In this document: one piece after another, positions 55,143 through 63,631 of the stretch
Numbering within the stretch: the stretch's first letter is position 1
Layout of the letters: the number at the start of each line of letters is the position of its first letter
Translations under genes and position numbers: made by a program
Source: Blastocatellia bacterium
GTDB lineage: Bacteria; Acidobacteriota; Blastocatellia; Chloracidobacteriales; JADJPF01
Direction: 5' to 3'
Assembly: GCA_025057015.1 (NCBI GenBank)
Contig: JANWYG010000004.1
Coordinates: 1 to 64,000, forward strand
DNA: 64,000 nt
Notes under the pieces: model-generated
Seen by the model: the letters and a program-made list of their open reading frames with translations, nothing else
Told to the model about the DNA's origin: nothing
Databases searched by the model: none

Positions 55143-55259
55143 TACCCTTTCTCCTCCTTATACAGGCTTACAGCTGCCGATTATACTATACCCTAAATAT
55201 CATCGATAGATACAACAAGTAGCTCTCTGGAACTCTCTCTTATGTTTTTCCATTTTTCT

Positions 55260-55585
55260 TTGTGCAATCTTTGCGCTCTTTGTGTCTCTGTGTTCTCTAT
55301 GCTTCCTTTGTGTTCTCTGTGTCTCTGTGTTCTCTGTGCTTTCTTTGTGTTCTTTGTGCCTCTGTGGTGAGGTTATTTTATTTTTCACCACAGAGACACA
55401 GAGGACACAGAGAGGGCACAGAGAAAGTTAAAATCTCTGTGTCCTTTGTGTCTTTGTGTCCTTTGTGCTTTCTTTGTGTTCTCTGTGTCTCTGTGTTCTC
55501 TATGCTTTCTTTGTGTTCTTTGTGTCTCTGTGGTGAGGTTATTTTATTTTTCACCACAGAGACACAGAGGACACAGAGAGAGAGT
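55260..55585. repeat. CACAGAG-type repeat array with two hairpins, right copy
   Basis: Two related units. Each has tandem 'tctttgtgttctctgtgtct' phrases followed by a hairpin: GTGCCTCTGTGGTG (55356-55369) with CACCACAGAGACAC (55386-55399), and a perfect 14-bp pair, GTGTCTCTGTGGTG (55522-55535) with CACCACAGAGACAC (55552-55565). Both loops are the same 16 nt (aggttattttattttt). The array ends about 60 nt before the methylmalonyl-CoA mutase start. Open frames inside only translate the repeat, including an apparent 5' extension of the mutase from 55446. Confidence 0.92.
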
Positions 55586-55646
55586 CGGCTGTTTGCCATT
55601 GCCTTCAATCCTTTGGCTTAGATACGATCTTATAGAGGGTTCGGTT

Positions 55647-57257
55647 ATGGAAAAGGAAAAAATGAGTAAGCAAAGAAAACAGAAATTCGAGACTTCCTCT
55701 GGCATAGAGTTAAAAGCTGCTTTTCAGCTACAAGATGTTGCCGCAAGCGGTGAGATTGATACTTCTATGCCGGGAACCTTTCCCTTCACCCGTGGTATAC
55801 ATCCCAGCATGTATCGCACCCGCTTTTGGACTATGCGCCAGTATGCTGGCTTTGCTACCGCTGAGGAATCTAACAAACGGTATAAGTATTTGCTTGCAAA
55901 TGGTACTACGGGACTTTCGATAGCTTTCGACTTACCTACCCAAATAGGCCTGGACTCTGACAATCCACTTGCAGCAGGGGAAGTAGGTAAAGTCGGTGTA
56001 GCAATAGATTCACTAAGGGACATGGAGATACTGCTTGATGGTATACCGCTCGACAAAGTCTCTACTTCCATGACGATCAATTCTACAGCAGCTATATTGC
56101 TTGCTCTCTATATAGCGGTAGCACGCAAACAAGGCGTACCCACTCATAAGCTGAATGGTACGATACAAAACGACTTGCTTAAAGAATACATAGCACGAGG
56201 AACTTATATCTATCCACCTCGTCCGTCGCTTAGAATTATCACAGATATCTTTGCCTACTGTTCTAAGCATCTGCCTAATTGGAACACCATATCGATTTCG
56301 GGATATCACATAAGAGAAGCAGGCTCGACTGCCGTGCAAGAAGTTGCATTTACCCTGGCAAATGCTATCTGTTACACACAAGCGGCTATAGATGCAGGGC
56401 TGGAAGTGGATAGTTTTGCCCCGCGCCTCAGCTTCTTCTTCAATGCTCATAATAACCTTCTCGAAGAAGTGGCTAAGTTTCGTGCTGCACGTAGACTATG
56501 GGCGAAGATAATGAGAGAACGCTTTGGAGCAAAGGATGAACGCTCTTGTATGTTGCGCTTCCACGCGCAGACAGCAGGCAGTACGCTGACTGCACAGCAG
56601 CCCGATGTGAATGTAGTGCGCGTGACAATACAAGCACTTGCTGCAGTCCTCGGAGGAGCCCAGTCCTTACATACTAACTCTCGTGATGAAGCTCTTAGCT
56701 TGCCTACGGAAGAAGCCGCTCGCTTAGCCCTGAGAACTCAGCAGGTCATAGCCTATGAATCCGGCGTTGCAGACATAGCCGATCCTCTAGGTGGTAGCTA
56801 CGTGGTAGAGTATCTGACAAACGAGATTGAAGCTAGAGCTTTGGATTATATACGCAAGATAGATGAAATGGGAGGCGTGTTAACAGCGATAGAGACAGGA
56901 TGGATACAACGCGAGATTCAAGAAGCGGCCTACCGCTATCAGAAAGCCTTGGAAAGAGGTGAAGAAGTAGTTGTCGGACTAAACAAGTTCCAGATAGAGG
57001 AATCCGAGCACATACCAATTTTCAAGGTAGATGATTCTATAGAGCGGGCTCAGGTAGAAGCGCTTCGAAGACTGCGTAAAGAACGTGATAACGCAAAAGT
57101 AGCTGCCGCGTTAGACGCTGTAGAGGCTGCTGCGCGTACTACTGAAAATCTCATGCCACATATACTTAATGCCGTCGAGTGTTACGCTACCGTGGGTGAA
57201 ATTTCTGATCGACTGCGCAAAGTCTTCGGTGAGTATAGAGAAGCGCTGGTACTCTAG
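55647..57257 (+). CDS. Methylmalonyl-CoA mutase, large-subunit catalytic domain
   Basis: A 536-residue B12-dependent mutase catalytic (TIM-barrel) domain interconverting methylmalonyl-CoA and succinyl-CoA. Family signatures are '[22 protein letters not shown]' (shown in part, the substrate entrance), '[20 protein letters not shown]', '[11 protein letters not shown]', '[21 protein letters not shown]' and '[19 protein letters not shown]' (each shown in part). The separate ~130-residue B12-binding domain is not fused and not in the window, so the enzyme is of the split type. ATG 55647 with AGAGGG 7 nt upstream is the start; the longer open frame from 55446 is repeat sequence. Its TAG overlaps the stop of the convergent E1-like gene in a shared CTAG. 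Ethylmalonyl- or isobutyryl-CoA mutase cannot be fully excluded. Confidence 0.88.
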
Positions 57258-58702
57258 TTTTGGTCAAAGGGAATTTGAAGGCTTGAGAGATCGAAGGCTT
57301 CTTTAAGCTTTAGGGCTACTTCTAGTTTTCTTTTGCACTCTGCACACTCTACGTAATCTCCGCGCCCGGCAATCTCGTCGGGGCCGTATACTCTGGCTGC
57401 ACCAACTTTGTCTATGCCATATGGATATAGGCCGTCAGCATTAATTTCAGCATAGTTTGCTCCAAGCAGCAGGGTACGCTCTTCTGCTATTATTCTGCAA
57501 AGCCAGACTTCGGGGTTAAGGTAGCTTGTTGTAATCAAAGCTGCTGCTATTGCCGCTCTTGCAGTCTCTACTATTGTTGCTGGTTCGGCTTGTAATTCGT
57601 GTGGTGCTGCATACATCCTTCTTTGCTCGGGCGTAAGTTCCGGAGTCGGACCACGGTGTATGTGCCCTCTGATACAACTAAAGCAGGGGCCTTCTTCCGT
57701 GACGATTATCGCTTCGAAGTATCTTGCCCTAGCATAGCAGCTAATTGCTAAATGGGGTACTTTGATTGACCTTAACTGTGCTGACACTGCTCGGTCGTGA
57801 TTAGTACCCGTAGAAAGCACGGCAAAGTCCAAGTGTCCGAGTCTGTCCAGCTCATCTAAATTAGTTTCATCCAGGTTTTTCATGAAAGTTAAACACTTTG
57901 ATGCGCCCAGTAGCTCTGCGCAAGCCTCTACTTTTGGTTTACCTACTTGTTTCACACTATATAACTGCCGAATAGGATTAGTTATATCGACACTTTCTCC
58001 GTCAAAAAGCACCAAGTCGGCACCAAGAGTTGCTAACTTTTCGGCTACGATACTGCCGAGGCTGCCGAGGCCTACGATAAGGATTCTCTTACCATTGAGA
58101 GTACTACTCTTTAACTGTCCTTTTGCTACTAAGCTGAGATTTTGCGAGCTTACTTCTTCTACTGCCCAAGGCCAGGAAGGATGCCCAATAAGCAAAGGAC
58201 GACCGTTGTAGAAGCTGTTGATGTCGCTACGTGCTAGCGGAGTTGAGTTTAGCAATCGGCCTTTGACCAGTGCAGCAGCTACCGTGAGAAGGTTATCAAG
58301 AAGTAATGTACCTCGTATGTTGACATCCACAATTAGATCAGCTGTAGTAGTAGGTAGCGTAACTATTAAGCCTGCGCCGTTCTCAAGCTGAGAAAAAAAT
58401 AGTCCTTCACAAGTATTTGTAAGGCAGAACTTGTTTGCTGTCTGTAGTACATCCCTTCTGCCAGCGGCTACTAAGAAGTCGATATTGCCGGAGCTAATTT
58501 CTATTCTGAGTCCTAGTTTTTCAGAGAGTCTGTTTGCAGCTCTTTCTACGGCAAGGCGATTGTCTTCCGTAACAGCATATTTGGTAATACCACAGCCACA
58601 GAGGTAATCCATCAACAAGTAGGCATCGCCTAGTATAGCTATGTTTTTGTTAAACAAATGGTTGCCGACTATGGGTAAGATCCTTGCGAAGACATCGTTC
58701 AT
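57254..58702 (-). CDS. E1-like ubiquitin-activating protein with tandem Rossmann halves
   Basis: A 482-residue ThiF/E1-superfamily protein. Residues ~200-345 are a canonical adenylation domain: '[14 protein letters not shown]' (ATP glycine loop 211-216), Asp234 in 'LVLFDGE', Asn242 and Arg245 in 'NPIRQLY', Lys255 in 'GKPKVEA', and a candidate thioester Cys322 in '[12 protein letters not shown]'. Two CxxC pairs (340/343 and 453/456) form the zinc site. Residues ~18-180 look like a worn second copy: '[19 protein letters not shown]', 'TEDN', '[13 protein letters not shown]' and 'LLIG' follow the order of '[12 protein letters not shown]', 'FDGE', '[13 protein letters not shown]' and 'LLLG', but without the glycine loop. 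That is the plan of eukaryotic Uba1 in one chain. AGAGGA lies 9 nt before ATG 58702, inside the preceding peptidase gene (53-nt overlap). It is the last gene of the operon. Confidence 0.85.
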
Positions 58703-59558
58703 TTGCGGTTTCCTCTATTTTAGTGAGCTTGTATTTGCTAAAGCTTGTACCAAGATTGATAACGAAATTGGATGAAATAACTGCGTTATGCAAAACCCGC
58801 GCTACGATAGGTTGAATTGGAAAGCTGGGCGGTAGTAGCAGTAATATTGCGTCACAGGTCTTTGAGTAGAAGGCAAGTGATGTCCAAGCACCAGGCCATC
58901 GCTCCAGCTCTATCAATCTGTCGCCAAGTTCGCTTCTGAGTGATTGCTCCCAATCTTGCCCTCGGACTGTTTTGTAATATGGCTGCTTGAGGTAATGGCA
59001 TTTATGCGAGTCAGAGATTTCTGCTTTGCCTAAATCCCATACTTGATTTTCATCGGCTGCAAAACAACAAGGATTCCAACCCTCGTCGTTACGCGCAAGA
59101 ATTATGGCAAGACTTAGGTGTATATCTAGCAAAGCAGAGTTTTTGTTCAGGTAGGGCAAGATGTGGCAGCGTAGGTCTGTACTGGAAGGATATGTGTAAC
59201 CGATTGCAAACGGGTGCGAGTGGCCTGGGCCGAGAAAAAGTAGTTGAGGGTATCTCTTGTTTATTTTCGATACCCCTTCGTGGAAGATTGAGTTTATTGA
59301 CGCGTCATGACGAAAGCTCGCAGAATACTGGCTATATGACGCAAATTGGCGCGGTGGCAGAAACACTTCACATATTACTATCTGAGATAGGTCTTCTAAG
59401 CGGCAGCTGTCACATAGCGTACGACCTATCTTAGGCTGTAGAGCTACCATTGGGTAGAACGTAGACTCAAGTGCTGTATCACTACGATTAGCCCAAAAGT
59501 CTGTCTCTTGACAGATCTTTTTCCAAGCTCTTGCGAGTATCGTTACTTTGGGTAGCAT
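58650..59558 (-). CDS. JAMM/JAB-family metallopeptidase (deubiquitinase-like)
   Basis: A 302-residue protein with the zinc-peptidase signature of the JAMM/Mov34/MPN fold: Glu64 ('VICEVFLPP'), His113 and His115 in 'LGPGHSHPF', Ser125 and Asp128 in 'YPSSTD'. The spacing from the second His to the Asp is 13 residues, two more than in AMSH-like enzymes, a small insertion. Such peptidases in E1/E2 operons trim the ubiquitin-like modifier to Gly-Gly or remove it from targets. The C-terminal ~110 residues are of unknown fold. ATG 59558 is 4 nt after the E2-like stop; an in-frame ATG at 59600 would overlap that gene. The gene overlaps E1 at its end. Confidence 0.82.
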   Translation of the reverse strand: MLPKVTILARAWKKICQETDFWANRSDTALESTFYPMVALQPKIGRTLCDSCRLEDLSQIVICEVFLPPRQFASYSQYSASFRHDASINSIFHEGVSKINKRYPQLLFLGPGHSHPFAIGYTYPSSTDLRCHILPYLNKNSALLDIHLSLAIILARNDEGWNPCCFAADENQVWDLGKAEISDSHKCHYLKQPYYKTVRGQDWEQSLRSELGDRLIELERWPGAWTSLAFYSKTCDAILLLLPPSFPIQPIVARVLHNAVISSNFVINLGTSFSKYKLTKIEETANERCLRKDLTHSRQPFV

Positions 59559-59562
59559 AGTC

Positions 59563-60486
59563 TTACCGGAAGTATTTAGGAACTTGTTTGTCTTCTGCAT
59601 ATTTCACCAAAGCAAAAGTATGAGGGGCTATTCGGTTTGCAACTACTTGTAGAATAGTTATGCTCTCGTTCCACTCTTTGGAAGCGTATAAGCAAATCTG
59701 TGTTTCTCCGATCAAATGAGCAGTATGGCCAGCAGCTTCGAGCAGATCAACGAATTCAAAACTACCATAGTAGGCTGTGGGCTGATTATGTGGCCAGTCA
59801 CGTGGATAATACACTTCTATGGGGATAAGTATGTGTTTTGCTCCCAGGATGTCTATTATTGGATAGGATAGCTTACGATCCTCGATTGCCTTTTGCAGCA
59901 CTTCTAGCACTTTAGGTCTGTCAGAGAGGTTTACTGGTAGTAGGCCTGACCAACCTAGGTAAGTTGGCCTTTTTACTTTGTATGGCTTGTCGCAGAAGAT
60001 ACATCTGACTGCACCGCGGGTGGGTACTAGATTGTCCTTGCAGCAAGGTGAAAGAATAGACGATTTTTCATACTTCTCATAAGGGTCATCTTCTCCGAAG
60101 GTGAGTATCCAATTTGGTAGATGTTGCTGCATTTCTTCAAGGTCGCGCTTTAGTAGATTTTCATTTCTGAGCCATTTGTAGTGACTGAAAAGTTCTTTAA
60201 TGAGTTCTATGTCAACCTGCCAAGTTTTGATGCTGCGATCGGGCATAATTCTTCTTTGTGTGAAGCTCTCTGGTCTGCCAAATCTGTCTTCTGCGGGGTT
60301 AATCGTCATTGGCAGCTCATCACCTCTGGCTTTGTTTCTACTTGGGAAGAAGTCAACAGGTGTAGAGCTAACTTCAGCTTCTTCAGCTGCTTTGGAACTT
60401 GTATAAATCCTTTCGCATAGAGGGCAGAAGGCTATCGGGCCTGTCTGTATTAACTCTTGAGGTGGGAAGCAAAATTTACATCTCAT
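59563..60486 (-). CDS. E2-like (UBC-fold) conjugation protein with zinc clusters
   Basis: A 307-residue protein. Residues 1-24 carry a zinc knuckle (C3, C6, C21, C24); C148/C149 with C162/C165 form a second. Residues ~195-295 follow the UBC pattern: 'IPIEVYYPRDWPHNQP' corresponds to the 'FPxxYPxxPP' strand-turn of E2s. 'HLIGETQICLYASKEWNESI' matches the active-site run GxICL...W, with Cys265 as candidate thioester residue and His257 at the position of the HPN Asn, a substitution seen in other bacterial E2-like proteins. 'TILQVVANRI' matches the following helix. No RING partner is needed for the call but none is seen. TAGGAGG lies 6 nt before the ATG. The assignment rests on motif order and on the E1 and JAMM neighbours. 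Confidence 0.7.
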   Translation of the reverse strand: MRCKFCFPPQELIQTGPIAFCPLCERIYTSSKAAEEAEVSSTPVDFFPSRNKARGDELPMTINPAEDRFGRPESFTQRRIMPDRSIKTWQVDIELIKELFSHYKWLRNENLLKRDLEEMQQHLPNWILTFGEDDPYEKYEKSSILSPCCKDNLVPTRGAVRCIFCDKPYKVKRPTYLGWSGLLPVNLSDRPKVLEVLQKAIEDRKLSYPIIDILGAKHILIPIEVYYPRDWPHNQPTAYYGSFEFVDLLEAAGHTAHLIGETQICLYASKEWNESITILQVVANRIAPHTFALVKYAEDKQVPKYFR

Positions 60487-60496
60487 AATAGTCCTC

Positions 60497-61135
60497 CTAT
60501 TTTTTGGTTATGAATCCGCCATAATAGAACCGTGCTGTTCCGGCATTAAGTGCCTCTTCTATGCTAGAAGCTAAGGTGAAAAACCTCTTTTGGATGCCTC
60601 CTTGAGTGAGCATGTATTCTTCTAATGAGTGAGGGCAGAACAGAATATTTTCCGAACGTGCTATTAGTGGCCTCGTGGGGTTGCAGCAGCTACAAGTGCC
60701 GTAGGGCAATTCTTGAAGTCTCTTGTACTCTCCTAAGTACTGTGCGTAGCGTTCGTTTGTTAGCGAGCAGTAAATGATGTCGTCCTTTGTTATTAGTGGC
60801 CGCTTAGGATTGCAGCATTTACAGGCACCTATCGGTAGGCTGTTAGTAGGTACCAGCAAGTTGTCTGGAACTCGAGGGACAAACATCTTGTTACAATTTC
60901 GGCAAACCAACAACCCGTTCTCTAGCTGCAGCTCATGCACGCACGAAGGGCAGCAGGGCAAACTCTTTGAGCTGACAGTTGTTGGGTTGCCATCTGTCTT
61001 CAAACTCTCTAGAGTGCTGACGACTTCCTGTTGCAACTGCCGTTGTTGTTTACGCCGGAGGAGTTCACCGATCAATGTCAAGTTTGACGCGTGCGTACCG
61101 TTTAGTGTCGCTTGAAGCTGTTGGTCTTTTTTCAT
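60497..61135 (-). CDS. Small multi-zinc-cluster protein with C-terminal Gly-Gly
   Basis: A 212-residue protein of no known family. After a charged helical N-terminus it has a Cys cluster (C61, C62, C65, C78, C81) and two repeats of the unusual motif C-x-C-C-N-P-x-R-P-L-I, at 105-115 ('CKCCNPKRPLI') and 148-158 ('CSCCNPTRPLI'), each followed about 10 residues later by an aromatic-Cys (Y122-C123, F166-C167). The chain ends 'RFYYGGFITKK', so a Gly-Gly (206-207) sits five residues before the C-terminus. Because it lies in an operon with E1, E2 and JAMM peptidase, it could be the modifier precursor, an E3-like adaptor or a substrate. No beta-grasp fold can be recognised by eye. AGGAG lies 8 nt before the ATG. 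It begins 9 nt after the preceding gene. Confidence 0.6.
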   Translation of the reverse strand: MKKDQQLQATLNGTHASNLTLIGELLRRKQQRQLQQEVVSTLESLKTDGNPTTVSSKSLPCCPSCVHELQLENGLLVCRNCNKMFVPRVPDNLLVPTNSLPIGACKCCNPKRPLITKDDIIYCSLTNERYAQYLGEYKRLQELPYGTCSCCNPTRPLIARSENILFCPHSLEEYMLTQGGIQKRFFTLASSIEEALNAGTARFYYGGFITKK

Positions 61136-61144
61136 ATTCTTCTC

Positions 61145-61996
61145 CTAAATCGCCACACGCAAAGCTGCCTCAAAGGCTTCTTTCTGAGCGGCAGGAATGA
61201 AAGATCTGGCTTTTTCCAAGTGCTTTCTGTTAAGTAGGAAATACTTGGAGCTTTCAAGGTAGGCTACTGACTCTGGTCTTGGTTCTATACCGAGTGATTC
61301 AGCGAGCTTTGAGAGGCATTCGTTGCCTTTGATGATTTGGGCATGTCCATAAGCTGCCATTTGCCTAATAGCTTCGTGGTGCTTAGCAGGCTGCTGTGAC
61401 ATACAGGCTGGTTCTATGACTTTGACGCGAAAGCCTAGAGCAGTAAACACCTGCGCGTTAAGTTGTATCATGTAGTCTGTCCAGACGCCGGCAAGATAGA
61501 TTTCTACCTCTTCAGCTGGAGCATTGCCTGTGTGGTCGTTGATCCAGTCCAGTATAGGCGAAGGTTGTTTGCCTTCGGGTAGCACCATAATCGCTTGATG
61601 AGCTCGATACTCACGTGAGTTACCGCATCCGACATATGGCTGCAGATCCTCTATCCAATCCCAACCGGGATGACCTTCTATAGCGTGCGGATTGAAGGTC
61701 TTAAGGTGCGGATAATGATCTATATTTTCTGCCGTGTGGCTATCAGCTCGCCATATTGTGAGGACGTTTGATGATCCCTCGCCCATAGTGACCAAGTCTG
61801 CCAACCATTGCCAGACACCACCGTTGGTTGCCACTATACGGGGATCAATTCTTATGAGGCAGTCTGCCTCTTTAGGCCCGTCAGGTGGTCCTACGAGATC
61901 GTTGATTAGGTCACAAATAATTACTATCTTCTTGTCGCTTATGCGACTGGAAGGTTGGTACGTATAAAACTTTTCGGGCATTATTGGCCTTGCCAT
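61145..61996 (-). CDS. Isochorismatase/nicotinamidase-fold protein lacking the catalytic Cys
   Basis: A 283-residue protein of the cysteine-hydrolase (isochorismatase-like) fold. The N-terminal strand with the catalytic Asp is present ('IVIICDLINDLVGPP', Asp29), as are a nicotinamidase-like metal-ligand region ('WRADSHTAENIDHYPHL') and 'NPHAIEGHPGWDWI'. At the active-site turn, active members read G-x-x-T-D-x-C; this protein reads 'AGVWTDYMIQLN', with Met176 in place of Cys. I cannot place the catalytic Lys either. It is therefore probably a pseudo-enzyme used for binding. AAGGAG lies 8 nt before the ATG. It is the second gene of the operon, after the Hsp70-like gene. Confidence 0.75.
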   Translation of the reverse strand: MARPIMPEKFYTYQPSSRISDKKIVIICDLINDLVGPPDGPKEADCLIRIDPRIVATNGGVWQWLADLVTMGEGSSNVLTIWRADSHTAENIDHYPHLKTFNPHAIEGHPGWDWIEDLQPYVGCGNSREYRAHQAIMVLPEGKQPSPILDWINDHTGNAPAEEVEIYLAGVWTDYMIQLNAQVFTALGFRVKVIEPACMSQQPAKHHEAIRQMAAYGHAQIIKGNECLSKLAESLGIEPRPESVAYLESSKYFLLNRKHLEKARSFIPAAQKEAFEAALRVAI

Positions 61997-62011
61997 GGTG
62001 TTTTCTCCTTT

Positions 62012-63505
62012 CTATAGGTCGTAGGTTATGGTTATTTCTTGCTGATTTCCTGAAGAAGGATCTGTTGCACGCACGACTACTATGCCGTCTTCATCTTTGC
62101 CTATGGTCACCTTGATCGGCGATCTTGCCGGTAGATTAGGTGGTAGAGGTAGACGAAATTCTCCAAGCAGTCGATTGTCACTAGCTTTTATATTTTCACC
62201 TTCACGAACTTCTATGACGACGTAAGCAAGGTTTGATGAAGTAGTTTCGAAAGTTTTTGTAGTAGTAGCTGGCACTATTGTCTGTCTTTTTAGCACAAAC
62301 CCCATACTTCCGTCGTAGAGAGTTATGCCGAGCGAGTGAGCAGTAACATCTTCGACCTTTATGTTTGAAGCAACTGATGCACCGTTGAGCTTGCCGGCAT
62401 ATATAGCAGCACCTCGGACAGCGAGCTCTTCGGGACGATCTATGTTGATTGGGTTTTTGCCGGTGACCTTATATAGCAAGTCTTTGAAGACTTGCATTCT
62501 ACAACAGCCGCCTAGGAGGATAACTTCGTCTACTGATCCACCTTCGGAGAGGCACCGCTCGACTAGTTTTTGAGCACGTGCAACCAGCGGTGAGATGAGC
62601 TTTTGTAAGATCCGTTGTGAGAGTATTGCTACAAGGTGAAGTGGTTTACCGTCTTCGGCAAAGGAGACAAAAGGCACGGTTAGCTCTACTTTTTGTTCTT
62701 GTTCTAAGCGGTGCTTGGCTTCCTTTACAGCCATCATCACTTCATGCCGAGCCATTTGTGAGCTATTTGCAAGAGCTACCCCGTTGTGGCGGCGGGCAAA
62801 GTTTTTTGATAGGTACTGGTATATCAGCAGATCGATGTCATTACCGCCAAGATCGGTATCTCCGACTATAGCTTTAACGTACAACTGGCCCTGGCGGGAT
62901 AGTTCCAGAACGGCAGCTTCACATTTACCTGCACCCATGTCAAACGTTAGTATTCTTTTTGGGGGACGTTCGAAAGTTACCATAAGCGGAAGAGCTGCTG
63001 CTGCTGGCTCGTTTATCAATTTGCTCTTTTTGAAGACAGCGGCTGCGGCTAGTCGCACGCTTCTTCTTTGAAAGTCGTTTGTACTGCCTGCCACTGTTAA
63101 AACTGCGTGTTCGACTTCATGGCCGAGATATCTTTCTGCAAAATACTTGAGCCGTTGCAGCACCATTGCATAAAGCTCTACCGGCGAATATGTCTGGTTG
63201 CCAGCTCCTACTAGCCTTATTCGTCCGTTGTCGTCTACTATCTCTACAGGTAGTGGCAGGTCTTTGACCTCGACATACCGCTTGCCGAGCAGTCTTCCTA
63301 TGCTGCTAACATACAGGTTCGAATCTGTGCCGGAATAGAGATAGGCATACTTGCCAACCTCGCGCATCCGGTGCAGCAGCACAGCGCTTGGCATCGATAA
63401 GTCACCTTCTTCTAGTGGTACTAGCCTCGTTTGACCATTTTCGTACACTGCCACTCGTGCGTACTCGTTTCCGACTGCTATTCCTATCCATTCTCCTTGC
63501 TTCAT
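62012..63505 (-). CDS. Hsp70-like protein with degenerate ATPase site and no lid
   Basis: A 497-residue Hsp70-family protein (DnaK is ~640). The nucleotide-binding domain (~5-370) retains 'LINEPAAAALPL', 'LGGNDIDLLIYQYL' and 'EVILLGGCCRMQVFKDLL'. Most catalytic positions of DnaK are changed: the phosphate-1 loop 'IGIDLGTTNS' is 'IGIAVGNEYA', the Lys70 position is Gly in 'SSIGRLLGK', and phosphate-2 'DLGGGT' is 'DMGAGK'. Only the Asp and Glu166 equivalents remain. A short substrate-binding beta domain (~385-497) follows and the helical lid is absent. ATG 63505 has GGAG 6 nt upstream. An earlier in-frame ATG at 63577 lies within and upstream of the promoter, so it is excluded; ATG 63517 is possible. 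It is the first gene of the ubiquitin-like operon. Confidence 0.8.
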   Translation of the reverse strand: MKQGEWIGIAVGNEYARVAVYENGQTRLVPLEEGDLSMPSAVLLHRMREVGKYAYLYSGTDSNLYVSSIGRLLGKRYVEVKDLPLPVEIVDDNGRIRLVGAGNQTYSPVELYAMVLQRLKYFAERYLGHEVEHAVLTVAGSTNDFQRRSVRLAAAAVFKKSKLINEPAAAALPLMVTFERPPKRILTFDMGAGKCEAAVLELSRQGQLYVKAIVGDTDLGGNDIDLLIYQYLSKNFARRHNGVALANSSQMARHEVMMAVKEAKHRLEQEQKVELTVPFVSFAEDGKPLHLVAILSQRILQKLISPLVARAQKLVERCLSEGGSVDEVILLGGCCRMQVFKDLLYKVTGKNPINIDRPEELAVRGAAIYAGKLNGASVASNIKVEDVTAHSLGITLYDGSMGFVLKRQTIVPATTTKTFETTSSNLAYVVIEVREGENIKASDNRLLGEFRLPLPPNLPARSPIKVTIGKDEDGIVVVRATDPSSGNQQEITITYDL

Positions 63506-63545
63506 CTCAAGCTCCATAGTGTGATATATACACTTTCTAATGATA

Positions 63546-63574
63546 AGGATATACATGAAATAGTGTCTTGTCAA
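63546..63574 (-). promoter_or_regulatory. Sigma-70-type promoter of the ubiquitin-like operon
   Basis: On the minus strand TTGACA (63574-63569) and TATCCT (63551-63546) are separated by exactly 17 nt. Transcription would start near 63539, about 34 nt before ATG 63505. No further promoter of this quality is visible downstream, so the six genes likely share it. Confidence 0.75.
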
Positions 63575-63603
63575 CACTTTTTTTTAAAAAAAAGAGAGGG
63601 GGG

Positions 63604-63631
63604 GCATTTCATCGCAGTAGCGACGAAATGC
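63604..63631 (-). terminator. Rho-independent terminator of the ABC-transporter gene
   Basis: On the minus strand GCATTTCGTCGC and GCGATGAAATGC pair over 12 bp with one G-T-type mismatch around a TACT loop, followed by a pyrimidine run ending in eight T. It insulates the ubiquitin-like operon from the upstream gene. Confidence 0.85.

Follow-up and report, generated by a model that had tools for sequence, protein, structure and literature searches.

What might a bacterium do with E1-, E2- and JAMM-type proteins whose genes are packed behind those of a chaperone-like and a hydrolase-like protein that both lack key catalytic residues, and that have no gene for a ubiquitin-like protein (Ubl) among them? 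The question is raised by a six-gene operon on the minus strand of contig JANWYG010000004.1 of a Blastocatellia bacterium, of which positions 1 to 64,000 (hereafter the window) were analyzed. Running from 63505 down to 57254, the operon encodes, in this order, an Hsp70-like protein, an isochorismatase-fold protein, a zinc-cluster protein, an E2-like protein, a JAMM-type metallopeptidase-like protein and an E1-like protein. The listing of open reading frames (ORFs) bears out the six adjacent genes described in an earlier note on this DNA, with intergenic gaps of 15, 9, 10 and 4 nt along the operon and an overlap of 53 nt between the last pair. The reading that we tentatively favor, with a probability of about 0.4, is that the operon specifies a lineage-specific accessory ubiquitin-type conjugation module, which would borrow a Ubl encoded elsewhere in the genome and use the beta domain of the Hsp70-like protein as an ATP-independent client receptor.

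The genome carrying the window (G000) was compared with three others of the same family (G001-G003). Gene order in G002 is identical to that in the window, and in G003 the leading genes lie on one contig and the JAMM and E1 genes on another; the break falls within the E2 gene, whose core was not recovered from the broken contigs. The E2 gene of G002 is split by a 59-bp minisatellite (L009:7480-8060, 8.7 copies, 93% match), which parts the zinc module (86 aa) from the core. This synteny puts the six-gene set beyond chance, and the co-occurrence of the Hsp70 and isochorismatase genes with the other operon genes, questioned at the outset, is seen in all three genomes, in G003 across two contigs. 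A search of 58 relatives with the E2 protein was positive in three, namely the genome of the window, G002 and G003, with no match in G001, a genome that is 83% complete. Among 396 genomes of the phylum, the isochorismatase-like protein gave two strong matches (its own genome and G002) and two weak ones at E 0.0009, the JAMM alignment matched the same strong pair only (2/396), and the alignment of the zinc protein gave two strong and four weak matches (E 0.004-0.009), the latter read as chance. Two 7-residue patterns of the isochorismatase-like protein, which distant relatives could escape, were scanned against 84,980 species and hit two loci, on the G002 and G003 contigs. The ratio of non-synonymous to synonymous substitution (dN/dS) between G002 and G003, computable for the five genes other than E2, was 0.04 for the isochorismatase-like gene, 0.13 for Hsp70, 0.22 for the zinc protein and 0.24 for both E1 and JAMM. 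Since these values lie between 0.04 and 0.24, none of the five genes is decaying and all are under purifying selection. Comparison genes gave 0.09 (a Pgi-like neighbor that, from its translation, we take to encode glucose-6-phosphate isomerase), 0.10 (an M28 peptidase) and 0.17 (a kinase), and the isochorismatase-like gene, the most constrained of the five, is held more tightly than the Pgi-like neighbor. These data support the operon as a conserved, co-inherited unit in the three genomes.

The Hsp70-like protein (62012-63505, minus strand, like all operon features given below) matches the Pfam Hsp70 family at E 4e-86 and comprises the nucleotide-binding domain and the beta part of the substrate-binding domain. 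The Asp of GIDLG, a Thr-Thr pair, a Lys and the Thr of GGGT are catalytic or phosphate-binding residues of Hsp70. In an alignment of the three operon copies with eight other Hsp70s of the same three genomes, the Asp of GIDLG (phosphate-1) is replaced in the operon copies by Ala, Thr and Thr, the Thr-Thr pair is gone, the catalytic Lys is replaced by Gly, Asn and Asn, and the Thr of GGGT (phosphate-2) by Lys; the linker is altered and the lid absent in all three. The eight were drawn from 15 further Hsp70-family matches, one of which (L040) had no usable ORF and six no locus. A second short Hsp70 is found outside the operon, also without a lid and with its ATPase residues kept (L035, G000:C16:116404-117894, a 534-aa frame; L037, G002:C90, 533 aa). 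The isochorismatase-like protein (61145-61996) matches Pfam Isochorismatase at E 9e-8. Met176 stands in place of the nucleophile Cys, as does Met in all three operon copies, and the first Asp is retained; the Cys is present in the three relatives aligned with it (one isochorismatase-family protein of its own genome and two others), two of which were chosen by a motif that includes this Cys. Both proteins thus conform to their initial description as an ATPase-degenerate Hsp70 and a Cys-less isochorismatase.

The E2-like protein (59563-60486) is predicted to carry an N-terminal zinc module, a second zinc site and a C-terminal UBC-type domain. An AlphaFold model, built from a two-row alignment, has a predicted local distance difference test score (pLDDT) of 60.8, and of about 72 over the core. 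Searched with Foldseek, the model gave no match under E 0.001, the best reaching E 0.07 with ubiquitin E2 variant (UEV) domains first; a second structural aligner gave a best Z of 10.3, to the UEV domain of TSG101 (root-mean-square deviation 3.1 over 134 residues), and its best 50 entries are all E2 or UEV by title. On this model, and with moderate confidence, the C-terminal domain has a UBC-type fold, in agreement with the original assignment. No E2 is present among the PDB sequence matches of the protein up to E 10, nor an E2 family among its Pfam matches, which comprise only weak zinc-finger hits (E 0.13 or worse), and the PADLOC E2 model matches it weakly (E 0.005). Cys265 (59692-59694), lying in an ICLYASKEW motif that to our eye resembles those of eukaryotic E2s, is conserved together with its flanking residues in both known sequences of the E2-like protein and is the putative catalytic cysteine.

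The JAMM-like protein (58650-59558, with an alternative start at 59600) carries the motif HSHP(x8)SSTD (59175-59222; His127, His129, Ser139 and Asp142), with Glu45 upstream, and the motif residues are intact and invariant in all three copies. Compared as a profile with 28 JABs it gave P 0.00093 (five controls 0.079-0.28) with HxHP..S..D aligned, and with the JABs of JAB-E1 fusions P 0.01 (controls 0.28-0.79). The protein has no Pfam match, and its structure prediction (pLDDT 34.6) was too poor to use. The motif and the profile comparisons support the presence in the operon of a predicted JAMM-like protein with an intact motif. A second UBC/RWD domain in its C-terminal part, suspected from an LPPRFPAQ stretch, is unsupported by profile comparison.

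The E1-like protein (57254-58702) has a predicted ThiF core at about residues 195-460 and two CxxC pairs, matches Pfam ThiF at E 8e-15 and other E1s at profile P 1.4e-13, and retains the glycines of the nucleotide loop. Adenylation and thioester formation by E1s depend on the Mg-binding Asp and the Cys. Gly299 occupies the position of this Asp, and Gly is found there in all three operon copies, whereas 18 of the 19 other ThiF proteins in the alignment have Asp. The nineteenth, L085 (1478-3856, in G419), is an E1-like protein of 793 aa that bears a JAMM-type motif; it has Ala at this position, so the loss is not unique to the operon E1. The operon E1 likewise has no Cys at the usual site, a condition shared with four aligned JAB-E1 fusions. 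The E1, E2 and JAMM motifs that the earlier note had described as visible therefore stand as regards the JAMM residues and the E1 nucleotide-loop glycines, and not as regards the E1 Mg-binding Asp and usual Cys. The first E1 alignment missed L019 and left out L020, L022, L023, L024 and L026; the final one added these six, L080, L085, L087 and two resident E1s described below, with L084 not captured. In a 12-row tree the ThiF core of the operon E1 stands apart on a long branch of its own (2.85 changes per column, support 100/100); no sister group is supported, and a closest relationship to the JAB-E1 fusions is not resolved by this tree. The N-terminal part of about 190 residues, a candidate for an inactive adenylation half such as that of BilD, gave P 0.036, 0.073, 0.1 and 0.5 in four comparisons with ThiF profiles. 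Judged from the missing Asp and Cys, the E1 is itself degenerate, which weakens the case for a simple self-contained cascade.

The zinc-cluster protein (60497-61135) consists of a CxxC/CxxC ribbon followed by two CxCC-PLI-C modules, which are mutually alike (z 14.9, with none of 2000 shuffles as good), and the module also resembles the N-terminus of the window's E2-like protein (0/2000 shuffles as good). Close to its C-terminus lies the motif FYYGGF (60512-60529), invariant in all three homologues and followed by a tail that varies in length and sequence. By itself, the terminal Gly-Gly is a weak indication of a conjugated end, because Gly-Gly occurs within the last 30 residues of 7 of the 50 ORFs of at least 150 aa in the region (any frame, zinc protein included); within the last 10 residues it occurs in 3 of the 50. 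No Pfam family matches the protein, and at E <0.01 its profile matched only two PDB sequences, both designed helical toroids (E 0.0005 and 0.004). They arise through repeated weak C-terminal stretches, and we read them as chance; taken at face value they would suit a helical end.

Where, then, might a modifier come from? In the two loci seen whole (the window and G002) there is no room for a beta-grasp gene between the six genes, so that the operon indeed has no evident beta-grasp protein, as first remarked. A Ubl hidden 3' of E1 in G002 and G003 was considered and rejected, the only operon-strand ORF of Ubl size there being a gene of 82-83 aa just 3' of E1 (L009:11522-11770 in G002; L028:3722-3973 in G003) that, by its look, we take to encode a small LuxR-type helix-turn-helix (HTH) protein; in the window, the convergent gene occupies its place. 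The ThiS/MoaD family is matched in each of the four family genomes, but also in 12 of 14 control genomes. A YukD search, in which only G041 exceeded the curated cut-off, led to a protein of 82-92 residues in the three operon-bearing genomes. This resident Ubl exceeds the cut-off of Pfam Rad60-SLD in G000 (E 6e-7) and G002 (E 7.5e-6), its ubiquitin and YukD matches there lying below theirs; it ends in NTRGG followed by A, S or GLKWVHQKK, and its sequence identity between G000 and each of G001-G003 is 85-87%. In G000 the nine-residue tail after RGG overlaps the start of the E2 gene. Near the Ubl are encoded an ordinary-looking E1, with both Asp and Cys, and a UBC-type E2 (HPHVWPDGKVC or -KIC), and a resident JAMM gene adjoins the set in G002 and G003; G000 has it on a different contig. 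The sets lie at L106:5241-7938 and L107:5957-6685 (G000), L108:5304-8679 (G002), L109:4077-7454 with the Ubl at L098:1492-1740 (G003), and L110:1320-7207 (G001). In G001, a CBS-domain gene with a weak glutamate-cysteine-ligase match (L110:2090-3991) lies between E2 and JAMM and is absent from that place in G002 and G003. G004 has at least the E2 and JAMM of this set. Because an RGG-ending Ubl with its own E1, E2 and JAMM is present elsewhere in all three genomes, a modifier may be in use even though the operon encodes none. An origin of the operon by recent duplication of the resident E1/E2/JAMM set is unsupported by profile comparisons, the E1 core being a separate clade. Other relatives in the class have multi-ubiquitin/JAB-E1 and Prok-E2_E sets, and PF14461 gave no match in 98 relatives, with control genomes equally silent. 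The proteasome family is matched in all four family genomes; G000 has a second, weaker proteasome-family protein (C10:146637-147137, E 6e-5) beside a strong one on C21, and G002 and G003 have one strong and one weak match each.

At the upstream end of the operon, a terminator-like hairpin with a 12-pair stem and T-run (63604-63631, minus strand; -19.4 kcal/mol, z -10) separates the operon from an upstream ABC-transporter gene. A promoter-like TTGACA-17-TATCCT (63546-63574, minus strand) precedes the Hsp70 gene; it scores 10 of 12 consensus positions, the top of 13 sites found, a number of sites that is unremarkable given 8.9 +/- 2.7 in shuffled sequences. The start of the first gene had been placed at GTG 63577, which is unlikely, as the promoter-like site at 63574-63546 lies downstream of that codon; ATG 63505, with GGAG just upstream, or the alternative ATG 63517 fits as the probable start. 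At the other end, the last gene faces a convergent gene (55446-57257) that, from its translation, we take to encode a methylmalonyl-CoA mutase. Low-complexity repeats at 55200-55620, giving frames of the CLCVLCVFSV type on both strands, lie upstream of this gene, and its first listed start, inside the repeat, is probably wrong. The genes near the operon, as identified by scan or translation, encode an ABC transporter, a membrane-fusion protein, a glycosyltransferase, a kinase and the methylmalonyl-CoA mutase-like protein. A protein-kinase gene adjoins the operon in G002 and G003, and its likely orthologue in the window's contig lies 3.6 kb upstream, past the window end, with 55% and 53% identity to the G002 and G003 proteins versus 35% for one other kinase. 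As a shared neighbor, the kinase suggests vertical descent and not an island. The likely orthologue in the window's contig, at L011:10118-11518 (contig C17:67117-68517), encodes a serine/threonine kinase whose N-terminus carries a CxxC pair motif, and is possibly part of the neighborhood.

Set against known systems, the operon combines familiar and unmatched parts. Bub operons, which we take to be those of type 6e, share with it an E1 without the usual Cys and the joint presence of JAMM, E2-fold and Cys-rich zinc proteins; they have Ubl repeats and a JAB-E1 fusion, whereas this operon has separate JAMM and E1 genes and no Ubl, keeps the E2 Cys, adds the Hsp70-like and isochorismatase-like proteins, and has an E1 in a long-branched clade of its own. 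BilABCD and type 6d-like sets, among them the resident set, likewise have separate E1, E2 and JAMM genes, but the operon differs in having no Ubl and an E1 without Mg-binding Asp and Cys; the E1 of BilABCD is described in the available text as having inactive and active halves (PMC11354881). The accessible part of PMC1779556 distinguishes five types of E1/JAB operon, types 6a-6c with E2-E1 fusions and no Ubl gene and types 6d and 6e with Ubls, some operons also carrying E2/RWD-like and metal-binding proteins. Types 6a-6c, including type II cyclic oligonucleotide-based antiphage signaling systems (CBASS; Cap2/Cap3), thus resemble this operon in having E1, E2 and JAMM but no Ubl gene (PMC1779556); they have E2 and E1 fused and are accompanied by metallo-beta-lactamase, nucleotidyltransferase or other proteins, in place of separate genes with Hsp70-like, isochorismatase-like and zinc partners. 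Type II CBASS, which conjugates its CD-NTase according to the portions available of PMC10097602, PMC10449767 and PMC11153139, is a precedent for conjugating a protein other than a separate Ubl; no CD-NTase family was matched in Pfam and PADLOC scans of the six operon proteins, nor in a Pfam scan of four upstream genes and one downstream. Chaperones have been linked to Ubl conjugation in FtsH-ternary systems, but the available text of PMC7159879 describes MoxR-vWA/FtsH chaperones for the Ubl sets, and Hsp70 as a partner of GTPases in separate conflict operons, a combination different from the one seen here. The claim that the set fits no known system hence holds for its Hsp70 and isochorismatase additions, neither of which is mentioned in the text available of PMC1779556, but not for an E1-E2-JAMM operon without a Ubl, already described there as types 6a-6c. 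No paper describing the six-part combination was found in the open literature, most subscription papers lying outside the search. From its predicted parts the operon resembles a ubiquitin-type operon that is set apart from Bil, Bub, 6d and 6e by the missing Ubl, and from all E1-E2-JAMM types by an E1 lacking an Asp that is retained in 18 of its 19 relatives.

These parts, read from the sequences, would fit either a conjugation module, given an E2 with its Cys and the JAMM motif residues, or a module in which half of the enzymes have turned into binders. We infer a conjugation chemistry, in which the Hsp70-like beta domain would hold exposed client stretches without an ATP cycle and pass the clients to the E2, with the isochorismatase-like and zinc proteins as scaffold and adaptor and the zinc module common to the zinc protein and the E2 N-terminus bridging the two. 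The modifier would most likely be the resident ubiquitin/SUMO-like protein, charged by its own E1 or by the operon E1 acting as a partner, and the JAMM protein would take it off again. Several observations weigh against this reading. The operon E1 lacks residues on which adenylation and thioester formation depend. There is no linkage between the operon and the resident locus, and G001, which gave no match to the operon E2, carries the resident set as well; since the resident set is more widespread than the operon, their co-occurrence is no evidence of a link. Profile comparison finds no similarity of the operon's JAMM and E2 to their resident counterparts: JAMM gives P 0.1 (a control 0.11), and E2 gives P 0.076 in a misaligned match (a control 0.04). 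The E2 assignment itself has weak profile support (P 0.13, five controls 0.47-0.70) and a best Foldseek E of only 0.07, its gene is interrupted by the minisatellite in G002, and in G002 the likeness of the zinc protein to the E2 N-terminus fails (478 of 2000 shuffles as good). The alternative of binders, in which the E1-, E2- and Hsp70-like proteins would bind Ubl or clients as decoys or scaffolds and the JAMM protein would be the sole active enzyme, deconjugating within a resident Ubl pathway regulated in this way, accords with the absence of key catalytic residues from three of the six proteins and with a resident pathway that looks intact in the same genomes; we hold it to be unlikely, as the E2 Cys and its surroundings are conserved in both known sequences, and purifying selection on E1 and JAMM does not alone discriminate.

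The operon might instead be self-contained, with a modifier that is not of the beta-grasp fold. In such a scheme the JAMM protein would trim the zinc protein after FYYGG, the E1 and E2 would join its C-terminus to clients bound by the Hsp70-like protein, and the JAMM protein would also undo the link. No Ubl lies between the genes of the two whole loci, the operon has JAMM-like and E2-like proteins of its own, FYYGGF is constant where the tail is not, and conjugation of the CBASS nucleotidyltransferase is published (PMC10097602, PMC10449767, PMC11153139, as far as their available text goes); terminal Gly-Gly is common, only three sequences are at hand, the toroid matches over the C-terminus would suit a helical end, and the E1 has no Asp, all of which make this scheme doubtful. 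Its fuller version, in which the zinc protein with a JAMM-exposed Gly-Gly would be the tag, aimed by a non-hydrolyzing Hsp70, with the isochorismatase-like protein as scaffold and an E1 of non-standard chemistry, is in our view quite unlikely. An anti-phage role of the Bil/Bub/CBASS type would agree with the E1 lacking its usual Cys, as in the four JAB-E1 fusions, and with the use of such enzymes by Bil and CBASS, which are anti-phage pathways, and by Bub, a putative one, hundreds of Bub operons having been found with phage protection not demonstrated for them (PMC13373217, in the part available). Against it, PADLOC gave only generic E1 models, leaving aside a weak E2 match short of a convincing level, the neighboring genes lend no contextual support, the kinase is a shared neighbor in all three genomes, and no relatives were found in plasmid searches with JAMM, E2 and the isochorismatase-like protein or in viral-contig searches with E2 and JAMM; we regard defense as very unlikely. 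JAMM proteins are also used in pathways of the thiamine and molybdenum-cofactor type. A small-molecule or sulfur-transfer pathway that employs E1- and JAMM-type enzymes without protein conjugation would have the isochorismatase-fold protein in its favor, and E1-like enzymes do serve thiamine and molybdenum-cofactor pathways (PMC1779556, accessible part). The nucleophile of that isochorismatase is gone, however, and the operon includes no sulfur carrier. We know of no sulfur-transfer pathway in which an E2-type protein and a chaperone take part, and such a role seems most improbable.

The interest of the locus lies in the joining, within one operon, of E1-, E2- and JAMM-type genes to an Hsp70 and a hydrolase that are both catalytically dead. 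The operon-bearing genomes carry two conjugation sets, only distantly related to each other, and, apart from the usual ThiS/MoaD type, one clear ubiquitin-like protein, which makes it directly testable whether the second set borrows the tag of the first or has its own. If the favored reading of an accessory module borrowing the resident Ubl is true, the operon would be a natural example, from outside eukaryotes, of a chaperone fold that acts as the substrate receptor of a ubiquitin-like pathway.

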